In this document: positions 26,998-37,187 of the stretch, in pieces
Numbering within the stretch: the first letter of the stretch is position 1
How the letters are laid out: each line of letters begins with the position of its first letter
Source of the DNA: Candidatus Thalassarchaeum sp.
GTDB taxonomy: Archaea; Thermoplasmatota; Poseidoniia; Poseidoniales; Thalassarchaeaceae
Assembly (NCBI GenBank): GCA_022451235.1
Contig: JAKUOA010000004.1
Span: 42,996-81,329, forward strand
Direction of reading: 5' to 3'
DNA: 38,334 nucleotides
The notes under the pieces: model-generated
The model's database searches: none
Told to the model about the DNA's origin: nothing
Seen by the model: only the letters and a program-made list of their open reading frames with translations
Translations under genes and position numbers: made by a program

Positions 26998-27010
26998 TCA
27001 GGTGTCAGCG

Positions 27011-27457
27011 ATGTCGACGGTTCCAGAAGCCTATCTTGCCCTAGCCGTGATGACTCTTGTCGGCATAGGTTTCCCAGTGATGAGTTTCGTCGCATCTCGC
27101 TTTCTAAGGCCAACTCCGAGCGCCCATGATAACAACAAATTACGTTCCATTTTGCTTCCGGGCTATGAGACTGATCAGAGCCTATACGTTAGACGAGAAA
27201 GCACTTACGAATGTGGGTCCGATCCAGTGGGTGATGCACACATCAATTTCCATTTCCAGTACTATTGGTATGCTATTATTTTCCTTGTATTCGATATCGC
27301 ATTCATGTTCCTAGCATTTGGAGGAGTAATTGCGATTCAGGATGCTGGCGGAGATATCGATATTTGGTCAGCAATGATTACCTTAACCGTATTCATCGCC
27401 CTAATGAGTCTAGGTGTCTGGCACGTCTTCCGCAAGCGCGGTCGTATTTACATCTGA
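27011..27457 (+). CDS. nuoA: Complex I subunit A (NuoA/FpoA-like)
   Basis: A 148-residue membrane subunit with three helices, near the quinone cavity of respiratory complex I. The family marks YECGSDPVGDAHINFHFQYY and IIFLVFDIAFMFLAF are present. The usual FDVE is FDIA here: the Asp is kept, but the conserved Glu (E81 in E. coli) is Ala, and the Glu expected in the third helix (E102 in E. coli) falls at a Ser in DIWSAMITL. ATG 27011 is chosen because AGGTG is 6 nt upstream; GTG 27002 would be 3 codons longer. It is the first gene of the operon, 9 nt before nuoB. Confidence 0.9.
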   Translation: MSTVPEAYLALAVMTLVGIGFPVMSFVASRFLRPTPSAHDNNKLRSILLPGYETDQSLYVRRESTYECGSDPVGDAHINFHFQYYWYAIIFLVFDIAFMFLAFGGVIAIQDAGGDIDIWSAMITLTVFIALMSLGVWHVFRKRGRIYI

Positions 27458-27466
27458 GGTGATTGA

Positions 27467-28063
27467 ATGAGTGAAGAACCCCCCAACTTCTCGGTTTTCA
27501 ATAGTAGAATTCTCGTCGACACAGTAGGTGATGTAACCGATGAGGCACTCAAGGCTAGCCGGATGAAAGAAGTAATCGGAGTACTCGGCGGGCGACTATT
27601 CAATTGGGGTCAACGAAAGTCGCTATTCCCTCTGCATCTTGGAATAAAATGCTGTGCTTTAGAGATGGCAGCGGCAGGGGCTAGCCGATTTGACGCAGAG
27701 CGATTCGGTGTTTTCTTCCGCTCTAGTCCAAGGCAGTGTGATGTGCTATTGGTCAATGGGCCAATTTCAAAGAAGTTCGCAGATCCAATCGTACGACTCT
27801 GGGAACAAATGCCAGAGCCTAAATGGTGTATCGCAATGGGCGAATGTGCGATTTCGGGTGGACCATACTTTCAGTCTTACAACATACTCGAAGGAGTTGA
27901 CACAATAATTCCAGTTGATGTGTATATTCCAGGGTGCCCTCCACGCCCAGAGGCATTGATTGATGGCTTTGGAAAATTGCGTGAGAAGATTATCCGCATC
28001 GGCGGAGTACCGAGTGAAGTCCGACCGATGAGCGAGGCGCCGCTAATCGTCGGAGACGAGTGA
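27467..28063 (+). CDS. nuoB: Complex I subunit B (NuoB), N2 iron-sulfur cluster
   Basis: A 198-residue peripheral-arm subunit carrying the terminal 4Fe-4S cluster N2 that reduces the quinone. The four ligands are visible: the tandem Cys62-Cys63 in IKCCALEM, Cys127 in GECAISGG and Cys157 in PGCPPRPEAL. FGVFFRSSPRQCDVLLVNG and the C-terminal LREKI match the family, and the length is normal. GAGGTGATTG before the ATG is a near-perfect ribosome binding site. The N-terminal about 30 residues are variable. Part of nuoA-N. Confidence 0.96.
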   Translation: MSEEPPNFSVFNSRILVDTVGDVTDEALKASRMKEVIGVLGGRLFNWGQRKSLFPLHLGIKCCALEMAAAGASRFDAERFGVFFRSSPRQCDVLLVNGPISKKFADPIVRLWEQMPEPKWCIAMGECAISGGPYFQSYNILEGVDTIIPVDVYIPGCPPRPEALIDGFGKLREKIIRIGGVPSEVRPMSEAPLIVGDE

Positions 28064-28077
28064 AGGAGGATTCGAAT

Positions 28078-28734
28078 ATGGGTAAGAAAATCTCTGCAGC
28101 GGGTCAGCAGAAGGCAGCTGAAGAATTAGCAAAGGCAATTTCGTCCATCGATGGAGTCTCCGCTGAACTCGATAGCCGTGCAAGCGGCACACAGGTCCGC
28201 CATACAGTAAGCGCAACATCTACTCCAGACTCATGGAGGGAATTAGCAGAAACCCTTGCAGCAGACCATGGTGTAGACTATTGCTCAATGATTACCGGTA
28301 TTCACTGGCCAGAGGCCAACGATAAGACCTGGGAAGTTGTCTATCACCTAATGAGAACGGGAGTGACTGACCCCGCAGCAATAGAAGGTGTAATTCAACC
28401 AAATATCACTGATGCCGATGCTTTGACTGGTGCTGATGTCCCTATGGAGATTCAAATTAGTATTTCACTACCTGATACGCGAGAACCGATGGTTGCTTCA
28501 GTACAAGACATATGGGTTGGAGCAGATTGGAATGAGAAGGAAACATGGGATCTTGTTGGAATCGACTTTGAAGGCCATGAGGGAATGCGTCGCGTCCTAA
28601 ATCCTCATGAAACTCCAGTAGGATATCATCCACTACAGAAGCAACACAAGTTGCGCTATCATGGATTCGAAGAAATGTACGATGATGCTCAAGGATACAT
28701 GAGGAAACCAGCTGATGCTGGGAAGATCAAGTAA
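28078..28734 (+). CDS. nuoC: Complex I subunit C (NuoC, 30-kDa type)
   Basis: A 218-residue hydrophilic subunit of the peripheral arm. It is recognised by SVQDIWVGADWNEKETWDLV and IDFEGHEGMRRVLNP, matching the 30-kDa signature (E-R-E-x-x-D-x-F-G-I-x-F-E-G-H-P), and by the HPLQKQHK end. ATG 28078 is taken because GGAGG is 8 nt upstream; the open frame extends to a GTG at 28060 that overlaps nuoB. It is separate from nuoD, not fused. Confidence 0.93.
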   Translation: MGKKISAAGQQKAAEELAKAISSIDGVSAELDSRASGTQVRHTVSATSTPDSWRELAETLAADHGVDYCSMITGIHWPEANDKTWEVVYHLMRTGVTDPAAIEGVIQPNITDADALTGADVPMEIQISISLPDTREPMVASVQDIWVGADWNEKETWDLVGIDFEGHEGMRRVLNPHETPVGYHPLQKQHKLRYHGFEEMYDDAQGYMRKPADAGKIK

Positions 28735-28746
28735 GGAGGGATTTAG

Positions 28747-29883
28747 ATGGCAGAAATGTGGATATCGATGGGCCCTCAACACCCAATGACGCACGGACTT
28801 TGGACTCTGAAAATCAAAGTTGACGGGGAAACTGTAGTTGATACTGAACCTGATTTAGGGTATATTCACAGAGGTGTTGAGAAGATTTGTGAGGCACGTG
28901 ACTTCACTCAGATCACTACCTATTGTGATAGATTGTGTTACGCCAGTGCTAACACTTGGTCACACTCTTACATATACGCTGCAGAAGATCTACTTGGTGT
29001 AGAAGTTCCCGAGCGAGCCGAATACATCCGCCTCATCGCAGTCGAATTACAAAGAATAGCTAGCCACCTAATGTGGCTTGGTGCATACGGCCCAGATATA
29101 GGTAATCTTTCGATTATGGTCTGGTGCCTACGTGAGCGCGAGATGATGATGGATTTACTACAGGAATTGGGGGGTTCGAGAATGCATTACAACTTCCCAA
29201 GAATAGGTGGGGTAAAGCGGGATTTGCCACATGGATTCTCTCAGCGCGCACAAGCAAAACTCAAACTCTTCCTTAACCGAATTCAGGAGTATGAGGCGTT
29301 ATTTGATGAGAGCACGGTCTTCCTCGTCAGAAGTCAAGGCGTCGGATACGCAAAGCCTGAGGAAATGATCAATCACGGAGTCTCCGGGCCAAATGTCCGA
29401 GCCGCAGGTGTCGATTACGATGTTCGCTGGGCTCACCCTTACTCTGTCTACAGCGAACTTGATTGGCAACCTTCAGTCGAACGCTCTTCAATCAAGGGCG
29501 CAGACTGCTACGACCGTTATCGAGTCCGAGTGGAAGAGATGCGAATGAGTGCATCGATGGTACTCCAAGCACTCGATAAGATACCAGGTGGATCCGAGAC
29601 ATATCACGAGCCAGGAGATCCGAAGATTATCGCCAAGGCTCCATCAAGAGCCCCGGAGGGGACCTATGGAAGTCACCACTTTGAAGATAGTCGAGGCGAA
29701 TCTATGTTCTACCTCGCAGGCGGTGGCGAAGGCCGAGGAAAGATGCCTTATCGCGTCTCAATCCGTTCTCCGATGTTCATCACAATTCCTTACGCCGCAA
29801 AGTGTATGATAGGCTACAAAGTGGCTGACATTCCTGCAATAATGGGCTCATTCGACCCATGTATTGGAGAGACAGATAGGTGA
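28747..29883 (+). CDS. nuoD: Complex I subunit D (NuoD, 49-kDa type)
   Basis: A 378-residue subunit related to the large subunit of NiFe hydrogenases; with NuoB it forms the quinone site. MGPQHPMTHG (His12, His16) and GYIHRGVEKICEAR are the N-terminal signatures; SHLMWLGAYGPDIGN and GGSRMHYNFPRIGGV follow. The end FDPCIGETDR replaces the more usual DPCxxCxDR. GGAGGG is 8 nt before the ATG. It lies 12 nt after nuoC and 6 nt before nuoH. Confidence 0.96.
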   Translation: MAEMWISMGPQHPMTHGLWTLKIKVDGETVVDTEPDLGYIHRGVEKICEARDFTQITTYCDRLCYASANTWSHSYIYAAEDLLGVEVPERAEYIRLIAVELQRIASHLMWLGAYGPDIGNLSIMVWCLREREMMMDLLQELGGSRMHYNFPRIGGVKRDLPHGFSQRAQAKLKLFLNRIQEYEALFDESTVFLVRSQGVGYAKPEEMINHGVSGPNVRAAGVDYDVRWAHPYSVYSELDWQPSVERSSIKGADCYDRYRVRVEEMRMSASMVLQALDKIPGGSETYHEPGDPKIIAKAPSRAPEGTYGSHHFEDSRGESMFYLAGGGEGRGKMPYRVSIRSPMFITIPYAAKCMIGYKVADIPAIMGSFDPCIGETDR

Positions 29884-29889
29884 TTTACG

Positions 29890-31431
29890 ATGGCAGGAAC
29901 GAGCGATTGGTTAGACATCCGAGGATGGACGGAGTCCATTGTTGGTTGGTCTATGGATCAAGTTCATGACTTGCTACCTTCGAGTGAAATTGGTTTAGGC
30001 CCATTGGGTTCGGTCAATTTACAAGGAGAATTTGCTAGTATTCAAGGGGCACTCGAGACTTTCATATTCACCACAATAATGTGTACAATCGTCTTTGCTA
30101 CAATGATGTTGACCTTGATGGTAGTTCCATACATTGAGCGCAAATTCATTGCTAGATTGATGGATAGACTAGGTGCAACTACCAGCCTCAGAAGTTTGTG
30201 GATTGGAGAAGGTCACACAACTGCAGGTCAATGGTGGAATCAATTACCGTTTGGAATGGGCGCCCCCATTGGATGGGTAAACGGAATGCTGAACTCAAGT
30301 TTTGGAAACAAATCCAAGCACGTTGCTGTGGATCGTGTCCATAACAGAGGTTACCACGGAATCTGGTTCCTATTTCCTGGCTTCTTCCAAGCTTTAGCCG
30401 ACTTCCTAAAGTTCGCCACAAAGGAACACATGGTCCCAACAAAGGCCGACAGATTGGTTTTCGAAACCGCACCAGTAATCATTATTGCAACGACAATTAT
30501 GGTCTATGCATTCATCCCATTCGGCCCACATATCTGGGCTGCAAATCCAGAGTTATCTTTGGTATTCATGATGGCGGTGTTTGGCGTCGCTCCACTTGGT
30601 GTATTCTTTGCAGGTTGGTCTTCAAACAACAAATATACACTCATCGGTGGAATGAGGTCCGCGGCACAACTTACAGCTTACGAGATACCCTTGTTGATTA
30701 GCGTGCTAGCAATTGCAGTAATCTCAGGCTCCTTCAATATCCTAGAGATAGTAGATTTCCAAATCGAGACAAGTAATACTTGGAATCTCTTCATCATGCC
30801 TTTGGGCGCTGCATTATTCCTAATCACAATGATTGCAGAAGTTGAGCGTATTCCGTTCGATATGCCTGAGGCAGAGGCCGAGTTAGTTGAGGGATGGTGG
30901 ACAGAGTATGGTGGAATTCGTTGGGGGCTTATGTTCGCTGTAGAGATGATGCGTGCCTACGCGGCTTGTATCCTCTTCGCGCTCTTCTTCTTAGGTGGGT
31001 GGCAACTGCCATTCGAGGACACTTTAGTAGGTCTACCATATGTCGGCATCATCTTTGATTTCCTAGCAAATGCAACGCCCGGATTAGTAGTACTTCTCCT
31101 CAAGGCCTACCTAATGTTTGCCTTCTTTGTATGGGTTCGTGCTTCCCTGCATCGTGTTCGTACTGATCAAATTCTTGAGTTTGGATGGCGCTGGCTTCTA
31201 CCCGCTTCGATGGTCAACCTTGCGGTAGCAATTTGGCTACGCCTCGAGGTTTGGGACAGCACTGCGGCAGGAGGCTGGCCAATTTGGGCAGTTCCAGTTC
31301 TCTTTGGCTCATTCATTGTCGCATTCATTGTTCTCGCCATAGACGAAGACGAAGATGCATTGGAACTTAACAGAAGGATGTATCATACTCAGACCTTGGA
31401 GAAGGCAAGCCCAGGTACACACAGAGATTAG
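29890..31431 (+). CDS. nuoH: Complex I subunit H (NuoH), with a long insertion
   Basis: A 513-residue membrane subunit linking the quinone site to the proton pumps; typical NuoH has 320-420 residues. VPYIERKFIAR (80-90) marks the end of TM1, and GGMRSAAQLTAYEIPLLIS, AEVERIPFDMPEAEAELVEG and WWTEYGGIRWGLMF are intact family motifs. Between Gly95 and Gln167 there are about 70 residues where others have about 12, so about 58 are inserted in the cytosolic TM1-TM2 loop at the quinone entrance, and the usual RxGPNxxG motif is missing. The C-terminus also extends (AIDEDEDALELNRR). AGGTGATTT precedes the ATG. Confidence 0.93.
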   Translation: MAGTSDWLDIRGWTESIVGWSMDQVHDLLPSSEIGLGPLGSVNLQGEFASIQGALETFIFTTIMCTIVFATMMLTLMVVPYIERKFIARLMDRLGATTSLRSLWIGEGHTTAGQWWNQLPFGMGAPIGWVNGMLNSSFGNKSKHVAVDRVHNRGYHGIWFLFPGFFQALADFLKFATKEHMVPTKADRLVFETAPVIIIATTIMVYAFIPFGPHIWAANPELSLVFMMAVFGVAPLGVFFAGWSSNNKYTLIGGMRSAAQLTAYEIPLLISVLAIAVISGSFNILEIVDFQIETSNTWNLFIMPLGAALFLITMIAEVERIPFDMPEAEAELVEGWWTEYGGIRWGLMFAVEMMRAYAACILFALFFLGGWQLPFEDTLVGLPYVGIIFDFLANATPGLVVLLLKAYLMFAFFVWVRASLHRVRTDQILEFGWRWLLPASMVNLAVAIWLRLEVWDSTAAGGWPIWAVPVLFGSFIVAFIVLAIDEDEDALELNRRMYHTQTLEKASPGTHRD

Positions 31432-31446
31432 ATTGGAGGTGAATAA

Positions 31447-32430
31447 ATGGATAAAACACAACAGTACAACACAGGACACCCACATGCGGCTCCTAATTTC
31501 CGTAATCTGATAATCAAGCCGATGTGGATGACGATGAAGACGGCATTACGAACCGTCCCATTCCTAGGTCGATTAGGTCTACTGAAGAATAATTACCATG
31601 GTCAAGAGGTTACAATGACAGATGATTTTACCCAATCTAGAATTGGGGGCGGCCACCTATCCGAAGGTCACACATATGCTGCAGACAGAGAGTCGACCGA
31701 TCTACTTCCTTTCCTTGAGCGACCTGTCACGGTCATGTATCCTTACGAACGACTAGAAGACATGGAGCCATGGTTATTTGTTCCAGGAAATTACAATGGA
31801 AGGATTGGAATTGTTTGGGAGACCTGTACCGCCTGCAAAGCCTGTGTGAAAGCATGTCCAAACGACTGCCTTCACATGACTTCTGAAGTTCGAGTCAATG
31901 TTCTTGACTTAGCCGAGGAAGACGACGAGTGGCACGGCTATGGTTCAGAAGTCGAGGCAGGTGGATATGCCGCGAAGCCAAAGGAAGAGTTTGAAGAAAT
32001 TGAGGAATTCGACTTGGTCAACGAGCATTCTGCAGCCCCACAGCAATACGATTTCGCAGAAGTAATCGACATCTCCGGCGATACTGCTACCGTCCGTTGG
32101 ATGGATGGATCAGGTATCGAAGATATTTCAACCAACGAACTCAAGCCAGCTGAGACTGATATCGTCAGTGGTAGAATCGATATCGGCCGCTGTATGTTCT
32201 GTGGATTGTGTGCAGAAGCATGTCCGTTCGAGTCATTCTTCATGACCAACGAATATGATGGAATGTCTGGATATTCTCGGGAGGACCTATGGTTCGATGC
32301 AGATAGAACTCGTGTACTTCCAGCTGTCCATCAAGAGCGAGTCGATATGGAACTTGCAAAGCGCGCAAAGAAGGAGAAGAATAAGCGTGAAAGAAAGGCA
32401 GCTAGAGCCGCCAAGGAAGCGGAGGCTTGA
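31447..32430 (+). CDS. nuoI: Complex I subunit I (NuoI), two 4Fe-4S clusters, with a long insertion
   Basis: A 327-residue ferredoxin-like subunit carrying clusters N6a and N6b; typical length is 140-220. The first cluster motif is Cys127, Cys130, Cys133, Cys137 (CTACKACVKACP), the second Cys249, Cys252, Cys255, Cys259 (CMFCGLCAEACP). The two are 112 residues apart instead of about 30. The inserted part is acidic (EEFEEIEEFDLV) and contains AEVIDISGDTATVRWMDGSG, which looks like a small SH3/KOW-like beta barrel. The N-terminal about 120 residues are also longer than usual. GGAGGTGA is 6 nt before the ATG, a near-perfect site. It is rich in Lys and Arg at the C-terminus. Confidence 0.95.
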   Translation: MDKTQQYNTGHPHAAPNFRNLIIKPMWMTMKTALRTVPFLGRLGLLKNNYHGQEVTMTDDFTQSRIGGGHLSEGHTYAADRESTDLLPFLERPVTVMYPYERLEDMEPWLFVPGNYNGRIGIVWETCTACKACVKACPNDCLHMTSEVRVNVLDLAEEDDEWHGYGSEVEAGGYAAKPKEEFEEIEEFDLVNEHSAAPQQYDFAEVIDISGDTATVRWMDGSGIEDISTNELKPAETDIVSGRIDIGRCMFCGLCAEACPFESFFMTNEYDGMSGYSREDLWFDADRTRVLPAVHQERVDMELAKRAKKEKNKRERKAARAAKEAEA

Positions 32431-32435
32431 TTTCA

Positions 32436-32705
32436 ATGGCTATTGATTTTGAGGCGGTAGCATTCGTCATTATGGCGCTTGTTGCTATTCTCGGAGCCCT
32501 CGGGTGCGTGTACGCACGCCGAGTTGCTCATTCTCTCCTATCTTTGATGATGACATTCTTTGCCGTTGCTGGAGTAATGGTATTGGCACATGCTGAGATG
32601 TTGGCGGCGATTCAGATTCTAGTTTACCTCGGCTCGGTAATGCTTGTGGTTCAGTTCGGAGTTATGTTAACTCGACGTCAAATACAGGAAGGTGATGTTG
32701 AATGA
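32436..32705 (+). CDS. nuoJ: Complex I subunit J, N-terminal half
   Basis: An 89-residue protein with three helices, equal to the N-terminal half of NuoJ: GALGCVYARRVAHSLLSLMM and IQILVYLGSVMLVVQFGVML match the family's VYvGAimVLFLFVvML core. Splitting of nuoJ into two genes is common in archaea. ATG 32436 follows GGAGG; the TTG at 32427 overlaps nuoI. The stop overlaps the start of the second half by 4 nt (ATGA). Confidence 0.88.
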   Translation: MAIDFEAVAFVIMALVAILGALGCVYARRVAHSLLSLMMTFFAVAGVMVLAHAEMLAAIQILVYLGSVMLVVQFGVMLTRRQIQEGDVE

Positions 32706-32968
32706 GGTCCCTGGGAATCACCGCTCGCCTCGGAGTATTTGCTTTTGTCCTAATTCTCCTAAGAGAAGTAATGGAACACCCGATGTGGGGAGAACCGGCT
32801 GCCGGAGCTCCAACCACACTAGACTTTGCAGTTTCAATTCTTGATGATTGGGCACTTGTTACGGTTGTTTTAGGTATCCTACTTTCAATGGCAATGATCG
32901 GTGCATCTTACCTTGTTCGTGACGAGCGCCTCGTGAATCTGCTTTACGACATGGGAGGCGATGAGTGA
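32702..32968 (+). CDS. Complex I subunit J, C-terminal half
   Basis: An 88-residue membrane protein with two helices corresponding to the C-terminal half of NuoJ, between nuoJ-N and nuoK. The sequence is poorly conserved in this part of the family, so the assignment relies on position, length and hydrophobicity. AGGTGATG before the ATG is the ribosome binding site, and translation is coupled to the upstream half by the ATGA overlap. Confidence 0.78.
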   Translation: MRSLGITARLGVFAFVLILLREVMEHPMWGEPAAGAPTTLDFAVSILDDWALVTVVLGILLSMAMIGASYLVRDERLVNLLYDMGGDE

Positions 32969-33270
32969 TGATTGAAGCAAGTTGGATTGCCGGTCTCGGT
33001 GTTATTCTCTTTGGGATTGGATTGATTGGAGCGTTTAGTCGTAAAAATGCCATCGTCGTTCTGATGTGCATAGAAGTCATGTTGAATGCTGCCAATCTAA
33101 ACTTCGTAGCCGGAGCCTTACACCATGGCTCAGTAGATGGTTGGGTATTCACAGCGGTTGCAATCGCAATTGCGGCCGCAGAAGTGGCAATCGGGCTTGC
33201 AATTCTTCTTTCCTTGTACAGTACGCAGGAAACGATTTCGTTCGACGAAGCGACTCTGTTGAGAAATTGA
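32968..33270 (+). CDS. nuoK: Complex I subunit K (NuoK)
   Basis: A 100-residue, three-helix subunit related to MrpC; it takes part in proton translocation. The two conserved buried glutamates are in CIEVMLNAANLNFV and AAAEVAIGLAILL. ATG 32968 overlaps the preceding stop by one base; a GTG at 32965 is an alternative start. GGAGGCGAT precedes it. Length is standard. Confidence 0.95.
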   Translation: MIEASWIAGLGVILFGIGLIGAFSRKNAIVVLMCIEVMLNAANLNFVAGALHHGSVDGWVFTAVAIAIAAAEVAIGLAILLSLYSTQETISFDEATLLRN

Positions 33271-33279
33271 GGTGAAAAT

Positions 33280-35577
33280 ATGGGTGAAAATAAGCAGGAG
33301 TGGGATAGACTGCTATTCATATTGCCATTTTTGGCAATCGTACCTTATCTATACAGTACTGGTGAATCATCCACTGATTATTGGTGGTTGATTATCGCCG
33401 CACCTTTGCTTTTATTCGCAACAATTGCGATCGCAGGTCAGGTTTGGAACGGTGATGAATTCTGGGTAAATCGCTTGAAGGAAGGTGGAATCCTAGGACT
33501 TGGAGCACTGAGCGTATCTCTTTCCGCTTCGATTTGGCTGATTTACGATTATCTCGATGCTCACGGTCATATTGAATCTGGAGATCCATTCAGTTGGCTG
33601 ACCTTCGATGTCCTAATCTATGACTCAGAGGGATGGTCGATTGCCTCTTCAGGATTCAGTGGAATCGGACTAGGAATATACCTCGATGCAGTTAGCATAA
33701 TGCTACTATTTGTTGCCACTTTCCTATGCTTCCTCATCTGTTGGTTCGCAATCGGATACATGACTACCGATTCAATCAATGATAACTCAAACCATCGCTT
33801 CTTCGCCGAGTTCGTTCTCTTCAGCATGGGTATGTTTGGAATGGTCCTCGCAGACAGCTTCCTTTGGTTATTCATATTCTGGGAAATTATGGGTCTTTGT
33901 TCCTATCTTCTTATCGGATTCTACTACTGGAAGGAAAGTGCTGCATACGCTGCCAAGAAGGCTTTCCTAACAACTCGCGTTGGCGATGTATTCCTAATGA
34001 TTGGACTGCTAATGCTCTATGACATATATGGCTCTCTAGACTTCGCTGTTGTCTTTGATGATCCATCCACAGGCGTAGGTGGAGCAGCGGTGGATGCTGC
34101 TATGTTGCAAACTGCACTACTGATGCTATTCATTGGTGCCGTGGGTAAATCTGCTCAGTTCCCATTGCACGTTTGGCTACCAGATGCGATGGAAGGACCA
34201 ACTCCTGTATCTGCCCTTATCCACGCTGCGACCATGGTTAATGCTGGATTGTATCTAGTCGCTCGAATGGTACCTTTCGTCGATGTTCATCATCATGGTG
34301 TGGCAGGAATGGAAGACCTGGGTCTGATCGTTGCATGGGTCGGTGGAATTACTGCCTTCATGGCCGCAGCAATCGCGTTTGTGCAGAATGACATCAAGAA
34401 AGTGTTAGCATATTCCACGATGAGCCAATTGGCCTACATATTTACAGGACTAGGAGCAGCACTTTGGTTCTTCAATAACGACAAGCATCACGCGGGAGCT
34501 CTAATCTTCGGTGGTGCTCTATTCCATCTCTTCAATCACGCCATGGCAAAGGGAATGCTGTTTATGGCAAGCGGCTCCGTAATCCACGAAGTTCACCATG
34601 CTCACGACCATTTGCATCATGGAGATCATGGAGACCATGACTTTGACCCTCAAGACATGCGCAATATGGGTGGCTTAGCAAGCAAACTACCCGTAACAGC
34701 CACAGCGATGATGTTCGGGTCGATGTCAATTATTGGAATTCCATTAATCGGTGGATTCTGGTCAAAGGAAATTATCGTTGGAAAGACCTGGTATGCTTAC
34801 TTCAACGGAGCAGACGCATTGCTAGGACCTGCTATACTCATCCTAGCAACTGCGGGTATGACCGGCTTCTACATGTCACGAATGTGGTTCATGACTTTCG
34901 CTGGCGAGCCAAAGAATGAACTCGTAGACCACGTCCATGAAGAAACTCCATGGATTAAGACCCCACTTGTAATTCTCTCAATAATAACCGCTCTAGGTGG
35001 CTTTGGGCTTGCTCTATACGGAATGGTAGATTGGTTGTCTGGAGAGACCGACCACCTTTCTATTCACAAGGACACATTCATCGATCAGGTGATTTACGAA
35101 TTGGAACATGCATTCCTACCTGAGGATGAACAGGTTCGGATGGTTGGATGGACTACCATCCTCCTTTCATTCATCATTGGTCCAATATTTGCCGCCCGAG
35201 TATACGGTGGTTCACTCAAGGAAGGCGAGAAAGCAACACCAATAGTTCACTGGCTAACCAGCCTATCTGGCAAGTTTGGTAGTCAGAATGTCGATGAATT
35301 AGCAAACTCACAATTTGCGGAGGCACTACAGAATAGACTGTATTTCGATGACCTATACGAGTGGGTTCTAGGAAAGACCATCCTTCCATTCTCGGCTTTC
35401 GCCGCTTGGTTCGATGCCAACATAATCGATGGAGTAGTCAAGCAGATTGAATCCAATTCTGTTTTCGGTTCCGTACAAATTCGCAGAATAACAACCGGTA
35501 ATGCTCGCGACTATATTCTGATGGCAGCGGTCGGTGCACTGTGTATATTTGCTCTAATATGGGGGGTGAGAGCTTGA
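33280..35577 (+). CDS. nuoL: Complex I subunit L (NuoL), Mrp-antiporter-like, with His-rich insertion
   Basis: A 765-residue antiporter-like proton pump of complex I; typical NuoL has 600-700 residues. Family motifs include FWEIMGLCSYLLIGFYYW, AKKAFLTTRVGDVFLMIG, AVGKSAQFPLHVWLPDAMEG, PTPVSALIHAATMVNAGLYL and HLFNHAMAKGMLFMASGSVI. After SVIHE an insertion of about 16 residues (436-456) carries nine or more His with Asp (HHAHDHLHHGDHGDHDFD); other NuoL proteins go straight to an HxxxDxRxMGGL stretch, which here follows as QDMRNMGGL. The long C-terminal extension that runs along the membrane arm is present. GAGGTGA lies 6 nt before the ATG. It precedes nuoM with a 4-nt overlap. Confidence 0.95.
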   Translation: MGENKQEWDRLLFILPFLAIVPYLYSTGESSTDYWWLIIAAPLLLFATIAIAGQVWNGDEFWVNRLKEGGILGLGALSVSLSASIWLIYDYLDAHGHIESGDPFSWLTFDVLIYDSEGWSIASSGFSGIGLGIYLDAVSIMLLFVATFLCFLICWFAIGYMTTDSINDNSNHRFFAEFVLFSMGMFGMVLADSFLWLFIFWEIMGLCSYLLIGFYYWKESAAYAAKKAFLTTRVGDVFLMIGLLMLYDIYGSLDFAVVFDDPSTGVGGAAVDAAMLQTALLMLFIGAVGKSAQFPLHVWLPDAMEGPTPVSALIHAATMVNAGLYLVARMVPFVDVHHHGVAGMEDLGLIVAWVGGITAFMAAAIAFVQNDIKKVLAYSTMSQLAYIFTGLGAALWFFNNDKHHAGALIFGGALFHLFNHAMAKGMLFMASGSVIHEVHHAHDHLHHGDHGDHDFDPQDMRNMGGLASKLPVTATAMMFGSMSIIGIPLIGGFWSKEIIVGKTWYAYFNGADALLGPAILILATAGMTGFYMSRMWFMTFAGEPKNELVDHVHEETPWIKTPLVILSIITALGGFGLALYGMVDWLSGETDHLSIHKDTFIDQVIYELEHAFLPEDEQVRMVGWTTILLSFIIGPIFAARVYGGSLKEGEKATPIVHWLTSLSGKFGSQNVDELANSQFAEALQNRLYFDDLYEWVLGKTILPFSAFAAWFDANIIDGVVKQIESNSVFGSVQIRRITTGNARDYILMAAVGALCIFALIWGVRA

Positions 35578-37187
35578 TTCAGTCAGATCCGCTAACATTC
35601 ATCACCCTAACACCGCTTGCAGTCGGTTTAGCCCTGTTGATTCTGCCATACCTCGCTCCTGCAAGTATGGCGGATTTCACTCGAAAGATTTCACGCTCAC
35701 TTTCGATGGGAGTTGCTCTGTCAATATTCGCCATTACAACCGCATTATTCCTCGGTCAAATTGGTAATATCGACTGGCTTAACATCACACAAGGTCAGTA
35801 TGTGTTCCAAAATGATTCAGTCGTTCTGTTGGAAAGTATCGGTGTAAGATGGGTAGTCGGCGTTGACGCCTTGTCTTTCCCAATGGTATGGCTTACCGCC
35901 TTGTTAATCCCTATCTCCATGCTAGTTGAGTGGGACGCAAAGAAAGGACATCTGTTCCACCCATTAATCCTAGTCATGGAGGGTGCACTGATTGGTGTAT
36001 TCGTGGTACTCGACCTATTCGTGTTCTACGTCTTCTGGGAATTGACTCTAATCCCGATGTTCTTCCTGATTTTGGTTTGGGGTGGAGACGATCGCAGATA
36101 TGCGTCGATGAAATTCTTCATCTACACTTTCACAGCAAGTGTTCTGATGCTAATTGGTATCCTTGTAATGTACTTCCACACCGATCCAATTTCCGGCCTA
36201 GGTACTCTAACCGGACATCATTTCGACTTGGTATCTATGACGGCCCAGGCCTCTGGAAATGGTTTGATTGCTGGAGAAGGTCTGCGCCACTTTGTTTGGC
36301 TCCTATTATTGATTGGATTTGCAACAAAGATGCCTAGCGTACCAGTGCACACTTGGCTCCCGGATGCTCACGTTCAGGCCCCAACTGCCGGCTCAATGCT
36401 ATTGGCTGGTGTCATGCTGAAGATGGGAGCATACGGATTCCTCAGAATCGCTGTAACCATCTTCCCAGAATCAACCGTAGTCTTCACTCCATTGTTGATT
36501 ATACTCGGAATGGCAAGCCTAGTTTACGGAGCAATCGTCTGTATGGGGCAGACAAATCTCAAGCGCATGGTTGCTTATTCATCGGTATCTCACATGGGAT
36601 TAATTTTCCTCGGTATTGCAACCATGCAACCACTGGGAATCGCCGGTGCGCTATTCATGATGTTTGCACATGGAATCATCAGCCCACTTCTCTTCGCTGT
36701 AGCTGGGGCCTTCAAGCATCATTACCACACTCTTGAGATTGGTTCCATGCGTGGAATAGCTCACCATTCACCTTGGTTGGCGGGACATATGATGTTAGGT
36801 TGGATGGCTAGTCTTGGACTTCCATTATTGGCAGGATTCGTCGCCGAAATTGCAGTAATGATTGCCTTCTGGATGACTTTCGGCTGGCTAGTAATTTGGC
36901 CAGCATTGACCCTAATCATTACTGCTGTATACTATCTTACAAGTATGCAGAGGACCATTTTCGAGGGTGGGGATCCTCACGTTGGTGTACTTCCTGACAC
37001 AATGCACGGAGAAGAACCTCGAGATATTACATGGCACGAGAACGCTGGAATGTTTGTATTGGGAGCTCTAACAGTATTGTTTGGAATCATGCCGTTCATC
37101 TTCTGGGACATGATGTCTGATTGGTCCACTGAATTCATGCTAGAGACCTTAGTTCAGGCTATGAATAGCCAGGGGGTGAAGCCCTGA
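35574..37187 (+). CDS. nuoM: Complex I subunit M (NuoM), Mrp-antiporter-like
   Basis: A 537-residue antiporter-like subunit. Key residues are in VFWELTLIPMFFLILVWGG (conserved Glu), FATKMPSVPVHTWLPDAHVQ (Lys) and AGVMLKMGAYGFLRI (Lys). SVSHMGLIFLGI and ALFMMFAHGIISPLLF are also typical. The start is TTG 35574, preceded by GGGGGGTGA; it overlaps the nuoL stop by 4 nt. The reading frame continues upstream to 35541 but without a good site. The stop overlaps the nuoN start by one base. Confidence 0.95.
   Translation: MIQSDPLTFITLTPLAVGLALLILPYLAPASMADFTRKISRSLSMGVALSIFAITTALFLGQIGNIDWLNITQGQYVFQNDSVVLLESIGVRWVVGVDALSFPMVWLTALLIPISMLVEWDAKKGHLFHPLILVMEGALIGVFVVLDLFVFYVFWELTLIPMFFLILVWGGDDRRYASMKFFIYTFTASVLMLIGILVMYFHTDPISGLGTLTGHHFDLVSMTAQASGNGLIAGEGLRHFVWLLLLIGFATKMPSVPVHTWLPDAHVQAPTAGSMLLAGVMLKMGAYGFLRIAVTIFPESTVVFTPLLIILGMASLVYGAIVCMGQTNLKRMVAYSSVSHMGLIFLGIATMQPLGIAGALFMMFAHGIISPLLFAVAGAFKHHYHTLEIGSMRGIAHHSPWLAGHMMLGWMASLGLPLLAGFVAEIAVMIAFWMTFGWLVIWPALTLIITAVYYLTSMQRTIFEGGDPHVGVLPDTMHGEEPRDITWHENAGMFVLGALTVLFGIMPFIFWDMMSDWSTEFMLETLVQAMNSQGVKP

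Follow-up and report, generated by a model that had tools for sequence, protein, structure and literature searches.

An acidic insertion with a predicted SH3-like fold between the two 4Fe-4S motifs of NuoI in Poseidoniales archaea

In the 14-subunit complex I, the face of cluster N6a, one of the two 4Fe-4S clusters of NuoI, is covered by NuoG. Among the described systems closest to the locus considered here is NDH-1, the photosynthetic complex I, of Thermosynechococcus elongatus (6hum/6l7o). Like the present enzyme it lacks NuoEFG, and its NdhI subunit is a NuoI homologue with two 4Fe-4S clusters and an inter-motif hairpin of 28 residues, as counted from our alignment. In PMC7021789, Lys86, Lys89 and Lys91 of NdhI are reported to touch ferredoxin at the arm apex together with Lys315 and Lys321 of NdhH, and the SH3-like subunit NdhS is seated in a groove of NdhI. 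PMC6992706 describes a long NdhI hairpin that rises over the hydrophilic arm and is flanked by ferredoxin and NdhV on opposite sides; it reports no direct ferredoxin contact for NdhS, NdhO or NdhV. Lysines of NdhO point toward ferredoxin in PMC7021789, and the two sources disagree over NdhV and NdhO. In NDH-1, the lysine-bearing hairpin itself contacts the donor at the entry point, with small separate subunits on or beside NdhI. Here we describe a NuoI in which the equivalent hairpin carries a large insertion.

The insertion and its distribution

The window, a stretch of 38,334 nucleotides from Candidatus Thalassarchaeum sp. (contig JAKUOA010000004.1), contains a nuoABCDHIJJKLM operon at 27002-37187, with a Pfam match for each subunit scanned. 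Within it, nuoI (31447..32430, + strand) encodes a protein of 327 residues whose two CxxCxxCxxxC motifs, RPVTxxYPYE segment and N-terminal helix are those of the 23-kDa subunit of complex I; solved NuoI/NdhI chains match it by phmmer (1.8e-13) and by structure comparison (VIA Z up to 11.7). At 31429-31447, the nuoH stop codon (TAG) lies in frame with the nuoI start, with five codons between them, and at 32427-32968 NuoJ is encoded by two adjoining genes matching the first and second halves of the family. The first 4Fe-4S motif of NuoI, CTACKACVKACP, spans residues 127-138 (31825..31860, + strand) and the second, CMFCGLCAEACP, residues 249-260 (32191..32226, + strand); by homology they bind N6a and N6b. 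The intervening segment, residues 139-248 (31861..32190, + strand), carries the insertion. A preliminary description had placed a long insertion at 31858-32190 (residues 138-248) with a motif spacing of 112 residues against an ordinary value of about 30; the insertion and the ordinary value both hold, the latter in the loci read and in T. elongatus NdhI, while the actual spacing is 110. The same description called the segment acidic, which its composition bears out (29 D/E versus 7 K/R, net −22).

The long spacing is universal in Poseidoniales (Marine Group II): all 132 loci read have exactly two motifs, 107-113 residues apart, though these loci are partly non-independent, as one entry (L001) stems from the window and some genomes may be shared between the two collections. 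In other Thermoplasmatota, all 40 loci read, hand-picked and thus non-random among the non-Poseidoniales genomes with a NuoI match, have 22-42 residues between the motifs: four loci of the sister family f3 have 41 and L063 has 42, with 22-32 elsewhere. Some of the second 20 of these outgroup loci resemble hydrogenase-type operons more than complex I. The excess in Poseidoniales is therefore about 84 residues relative to most Thermoplasmata (26) and about 69 relative to f3 (41), whose hairpin is of intermediate length. In a class-wide search, NuoI was present in 75 of 77 Poseidoniales genomes (93 of 98 counting f3); no match was found in G022 and G023, and the G048 locus is truncated by a contig end. 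Of the 295 relatives of the insert that were found, the best 80 were read, and among these the single record titled Gammaproteobacteria (L156, 75% identical) is presumed to be a mislabelled bin. The recurrence of two motifs with a 107-113 spacing in all 132 loci shows that the long form is due neither to chance nor to faulty assembly, and its universality here as against the short spacing in relatives marks the insertion as an old, fixed trait of the order. Thus, the NuoI insertion is genuine, conserved, acidic and confined to one clade. In the open-licence literature, we found nothing on it, nor any paper joining Poseidoniales, complex I and NuoI, or archaea/Thermoplasma, complex I, ferredoxin and NuoI.

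Conservation was assessed on 40 of 51 inserts, with a second alignment of 59 rows; L050, which contains X residues, and near-identical loci were excluded. Mean column identity across the 40 aligned inserts is 69%, with 23 invariant columns, among them F203, G211 and W218. Mean column entropy is lowest in the cluster regions (0.31-0.35 bits), followed by residues 139-178 (0.90) and residues 200-236 of the predicted barrel described below (1.22), and reaches 1.77 bits in an acidic variable linker at residues 179-199 (31981..32043, + strand). Downstream of the second motif, the protein ends in a basic helix (residues 296-327, 32332..32427, + strand; pI 10.1). In motif 2 of family f2 NuoI (L035-L050), the fourth cysteine is followed by G, N or S in place of proline, e.g., CMFCGLCMEACGF, and three f2 proteins of 455-456 residues (L035, L038, L041) bear a C-terminal extension. 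That of L035 includes a helix-hairpin-helix-like segment (GIGPFIEEKLNALGI), which we take to resemble a domain at the C-terminus of certain bacterial NuoE proteins; the extensions of L035 and L041 gave no Pfam match at 0.01.

Predicted fold and position

SH3-like barrels are a widespread fold. In the AlphaFold2 model of the whole NuoI, strands are predicted at residues 201-210, 213-218, 224-228 and 233-245 (32047..32181, + strand), with a pLDDT of 92-93 over blocks of residues 201-230, in a model that is weak beyond the barrel (mean pLDDT 68, pTM 0.49). The insert was also folded separately because fold searches with the whole NuoI returned NuoI chains throughout; this model (mean pLDDT 69.9) recovers the same strands plus one at its positions 36-40. 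The latter corresponds to the conserved residues 174-178 of NuoI (YAAKP; 31966..31980, + strand), for which the whole-protein model likewise predicts a short barrel strand.

Fold comparison of the insert matched KOW, Tudor, myosin SH3-like and SH3 chains. The top match is 5ohq, the KOW6-KOW7 region of DSIF (Foldseek E 0.047; Z 6.4, rmsd 2.4, 55 aligned), and with TDRD3 and SMN it belongs to a group of KOW/Tudor barrels at Z 5-6.4 that resemble the insert in fold but show no significant sequence match to it. KOW/Tudor domains bind nucleic acids or peptides, in proteins unrelated to NuoI. As no match reached E <= 0.001 or Z >= 8, the comparisons support a fold class and no particular family. Sequence searches assigned the insert to no known family: when 40 inserts were scanned against Pfam to E 10, the names were weak and scattered (at best PCB_OB, 0.0074, in 9/40; the SH3-like Myosin_N, 0.021, in 6/40; Agenet, 0.059), with no KOW, Tudor or NdhS family among them, and a profile of the insert run against PDB sequences to E 10 returned solely 4nao_A at E 0.52. 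The SH3/KOW-like barrel of the preliminary description is thus supported by AlphaFold2 and fold comparison, with no single match statistically decisive, and residues 201-245 are predicted to fold as an SH3-like barrel.

Two small NDH-1 subunits are also among the fold matches. The T. elongatus NDH chain 6nbq_O, taken as NdhO from its chain letter, ranks eighth by Foldseek (E 0.072). The other match, 2jz2 (Z 5.5, rmsd 6.6, 64 aligned), is named in PMC7021789 as the homologue of NdhS. Both NdhS and NdhO lie on or beside NdhI at the ferredoxin site, but as separate subunits with no sequence relation detected, whereas the Poseidoniales domain is acidic and encoded in cis, inside NuoI. The predicted fold that the insert shares with NdhS is no sign of kinship.

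The alignment also bears on where the domain sits. From residue 86 onward, T. elongatus NdhI (KELKKKEL; 86-91 KELKKK) aligns just ahead of motif 2 of NuoI, in the same hairpin. As the insertion lies in the hairpin whose NdhI counterpart holds Lys86, Lys89 and Lys91, we infer by homology that it is located at the donor entry beside N6a, and not near the quinone site, where the preliminary description had put it: in NDH-1 the homologous hairpin projects above the hydrophilic arm, at ferredoxin. The Poseidoniales hairpin has neither a lysine cluster comparable to KELKKK nor the bare architecture of NdhI, which contacts ferredoxin without an inserted domain. On the NuoD side, Lys315 and Lys321 of NdhH align with Ala298 and Glu304; since lysine is inconsistently kept at these positions in the NuoD of relatives too, the substitutions are neutral evidence. 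Poseidoniales NuoD also has a small insertion of about 10 extra residues (about 283-292; 29593..29622, + strand) immediately ahead of the stretch that corresponds to the ferredoxin-contacting part of NdhH.

Electron donors and the role of the insertion

The preliminary description assumed that the NADH module is missing, and the genomes agree: NuoF (Complex1_51K) was found in none of 20 (13 Poseidoniales, 3 f3, 4 others), with the control positive in 9/14, so that none of the 13 Poseidoniales genomes has the NuoF of the 14-subunit NADH-dependent enzyme. The FrhB/FpoF-type family was likewise found in none of the 13 Poseidoniales genomes (1/20 overall), and POR_N of the 2-oxoacid:ferredoxin oxidoreductases is present in all 20. 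The absence of NuoF and FrhB/FpoF together with the ubiquity of POR_N makes it likely that the Poseidoniales complex I is fed via a ferredoxin route.

The history of NuoI offers a further element. Four 4Fe-4S motifs, the additional pair belonging to a C-terminal dicluster ferredoxin domain, are found in the NuoI of 21 of the 40 relatives (L053-L063, L068, L071, L072, L196, L206-L209, L212 and L213), including all four f3 loci, and Pfam recovers four Fer4 stretches in L053. These four-motif versions from f3 and Thermoplasmata resemble the Poseidoniales system in operon type, lack of NuoF and closeness in a NuoD+NuoH tree, but differ in their hairpin (26-42 residues, mostly neutral to basic) and in the extra domain, which Poseidoniales NuoI does not have. 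In that tree (38 loci, midpoint rooting; L049 left out for its short NuoD match), the insert-bearing loci form one clade with support 1.0 among four-motif lineages, the adjoining splits having modest support (0.74-0.81). This placement makes loss of the C-terminal ferredoxin domain in Poseidoniales the simpler reading. A search for a free ferredoxin split off from that domain gave weak matches across all ferredoxins, the best being L099 (E 5e-8, about 29% identity), from which no such split can be claimed.

Taken together, we tentatively posit, as a reading that is possible though somewhat short of probable, that the insert is an SH3-like domain, encoded in cis, which forms or gates a remodelled docking site for the donor in a complex I without NuoEFG. 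A small SH3-like domain would have grown into the hairpin that, in photosynthetic complex I, contacts ferredoxin next to N6a, and in an enzyme without the NADH module would serve as a donor-docking accessory in cis. It might brace or gate the hairpin much as NdhS and NdhV do externally in NDH-1, might thereby select which low-potential carrier reaches N6a, and would accompany the absence of the C-terminal dicluster ferredoxin domain found in the NuoI of many relatives. The insert with its conservation and clade, the gene content and the charges are direct results; the barrel in this proposal is a prediction, the position beside N6a is deduced from homology, and the docking or gating function is putative.

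The form such a role might take is narrowed by charge. The whole hairpin has a mean net charge of −18.0 (range −22 to −14) in 128 Poseidoniales versus −3 to +4 (about +1 on average) in 20 relatives, and the last 20 residues ahead of motif 2 average −0.8 (−3 to +1) versus about +2 (−2 to +5). The ferredoxins that we take to be of the 7Fe, 8Fe and 2Fe-2S types have pI values of 4.1-4.8 (24 of 41 fetched loci examined). With both sides acidic, it is doubtful that an ordinary ferredoxin lands directly on the insert. The earlier suggestion of ferredoxin docking thus survives insofar as homology with NdhI makes this a donor-docking hairpin, and falters insofar as the acidic insert would be a poor landing pad for acidic ferredoxins. 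The insert is easier to reconcile with a brace, a gate or another partner, and since NdhS, NdhO and NdhV make no direct ferredoxin contact in PMC6992706, the NDH-1 analogy also favors a brace over a binding site.

A purely structural role is the strongest competitor of the docking or gating domain, though we consider it rather unlikely: the SH3-like domain might cover and stabilize the N6a face, or help assembly, without any choice of donor. That face should be exposed, since NuoF is absent, and the barrel, with its mean entropy of 1.22 bits, is less conserved than the cluster regions, as would suit a cap. However, all seven of the relatives tested that lack NuoF manage without one, and the insert is located on the very hairpin that touches ferredoxin in NDH-1.

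Still less probable is an inverted docking surface, in which the acidic insert would receive a donor of its own that presents a basic face, and repel generic acidic ferredoxins. The charge shift of the hairpin between relatives and Poseidoniales speaks for this, and a candidate is available in a 110-residue dicluster ferredoxin whose N-terminal helix is basic and which is less acidic than the other small ferredoxins examined (pI 7.5-8.5 in L079, L084 and L088). On the other hand, its version in the genome of the window (L092, pI 5.1) is not basic overall, no genetic link of the 110-residue ferredoxin to nuo was found, and the basic C-terminal tail of NuoI (mean +4.6 from residue 290 to the end) might still serve acidic ferredoxins. 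The gene upstream of the L092 copy presumably encodes an HdrD/GlpC-like iron-sulphur protein, and the ferredoxin itself is possibly the orphan RnfB mentioned in PMC6336850. A broader scenario, which we regard as unlikely though less so than the inverted surface taken singly, is that Poseidoniales lost the tethered dicluster ferredoxin domain, gained an acidic SH3-like receiver and inverted the charge of the hairpin, such that a dedicated partner replaced the general pool of acidic ferredoxins.

The NuoH loop and the meaning of the insertion for Poseidoniales

The TM1-TM2 loop of NuoH lies at the level of the membrane, and the Fe-S chain runs from the arm apex at one end to the quinone cavity at the other. 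This loop is expanded in the window (residues about 96-158; 30175..30363, + strand), measuring 73-74 residues from DRxG to the next AD motif in 123 Poseidoniales loci; judged by eye, it is about 37 residues long in f3 and about 12 in Thermoplasmata. In L063, the same loop holds another kind of insert that is hydrophobic in part. NuoH-NuoI pairs were available for 127 of the 132 loci, 123 of them with a measurable NuoH loop, and together with the window the 127 amount to an effective sequence number of only 38.5. A co-occurrence check, as the preliminary description had proposed, finds that the two loops do expand together: NuoI spacings of 22-32 pair with a short NuoH loop, those of 41-42 with an expanded one and those of 107-113 with the longest. 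Since the expanded loops occur in neighboring lineages of the tree, this is effectively one event from which contact cannot be inferred, and the joint expansion is most simply explained as co-inheritance.

NuoI has a second Poseidoniales-specific insertion, poorly conserved, between its N-terminal helix and RPVTVMYPYE (residues about 41-89; 31567..31713, + strand). In NDH-1, the NuoI-type N-terminal helix runs along the membrane arm according to PMC7021789 and PMC6992706; if NuoI meets the NuoH loop at all, this second insertion is the more likely candidate. Hence, the earlier proposal that the inter-motif and NuoH insertions touch and form a single lineage-specific module by the quinone site is very improbable, for although both loops enlarge in the same lineages, these are close in the tree, homology with NDH-1 puts the NuoI hairpin at the arm apex, away from the NuoH loop at the membrane, and residues 41-89 would be better placed for such a meeting.

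Returning to the docking or gating domain, the insertion suggests that Poseidoniales may have remodelled the site where electrons enter complex I. Marine Group II are abundant archaea of the ocean, and their enzyme is termed a canonical NADH dehydrogenase in PMC6336850, yet NuoF was not found in the 13 Poseidoniales genomes searched here. A domain inserted at the putative donor site would offer a concrete experimental handle, which could be set against the few ferredoxins encoded by the genome.
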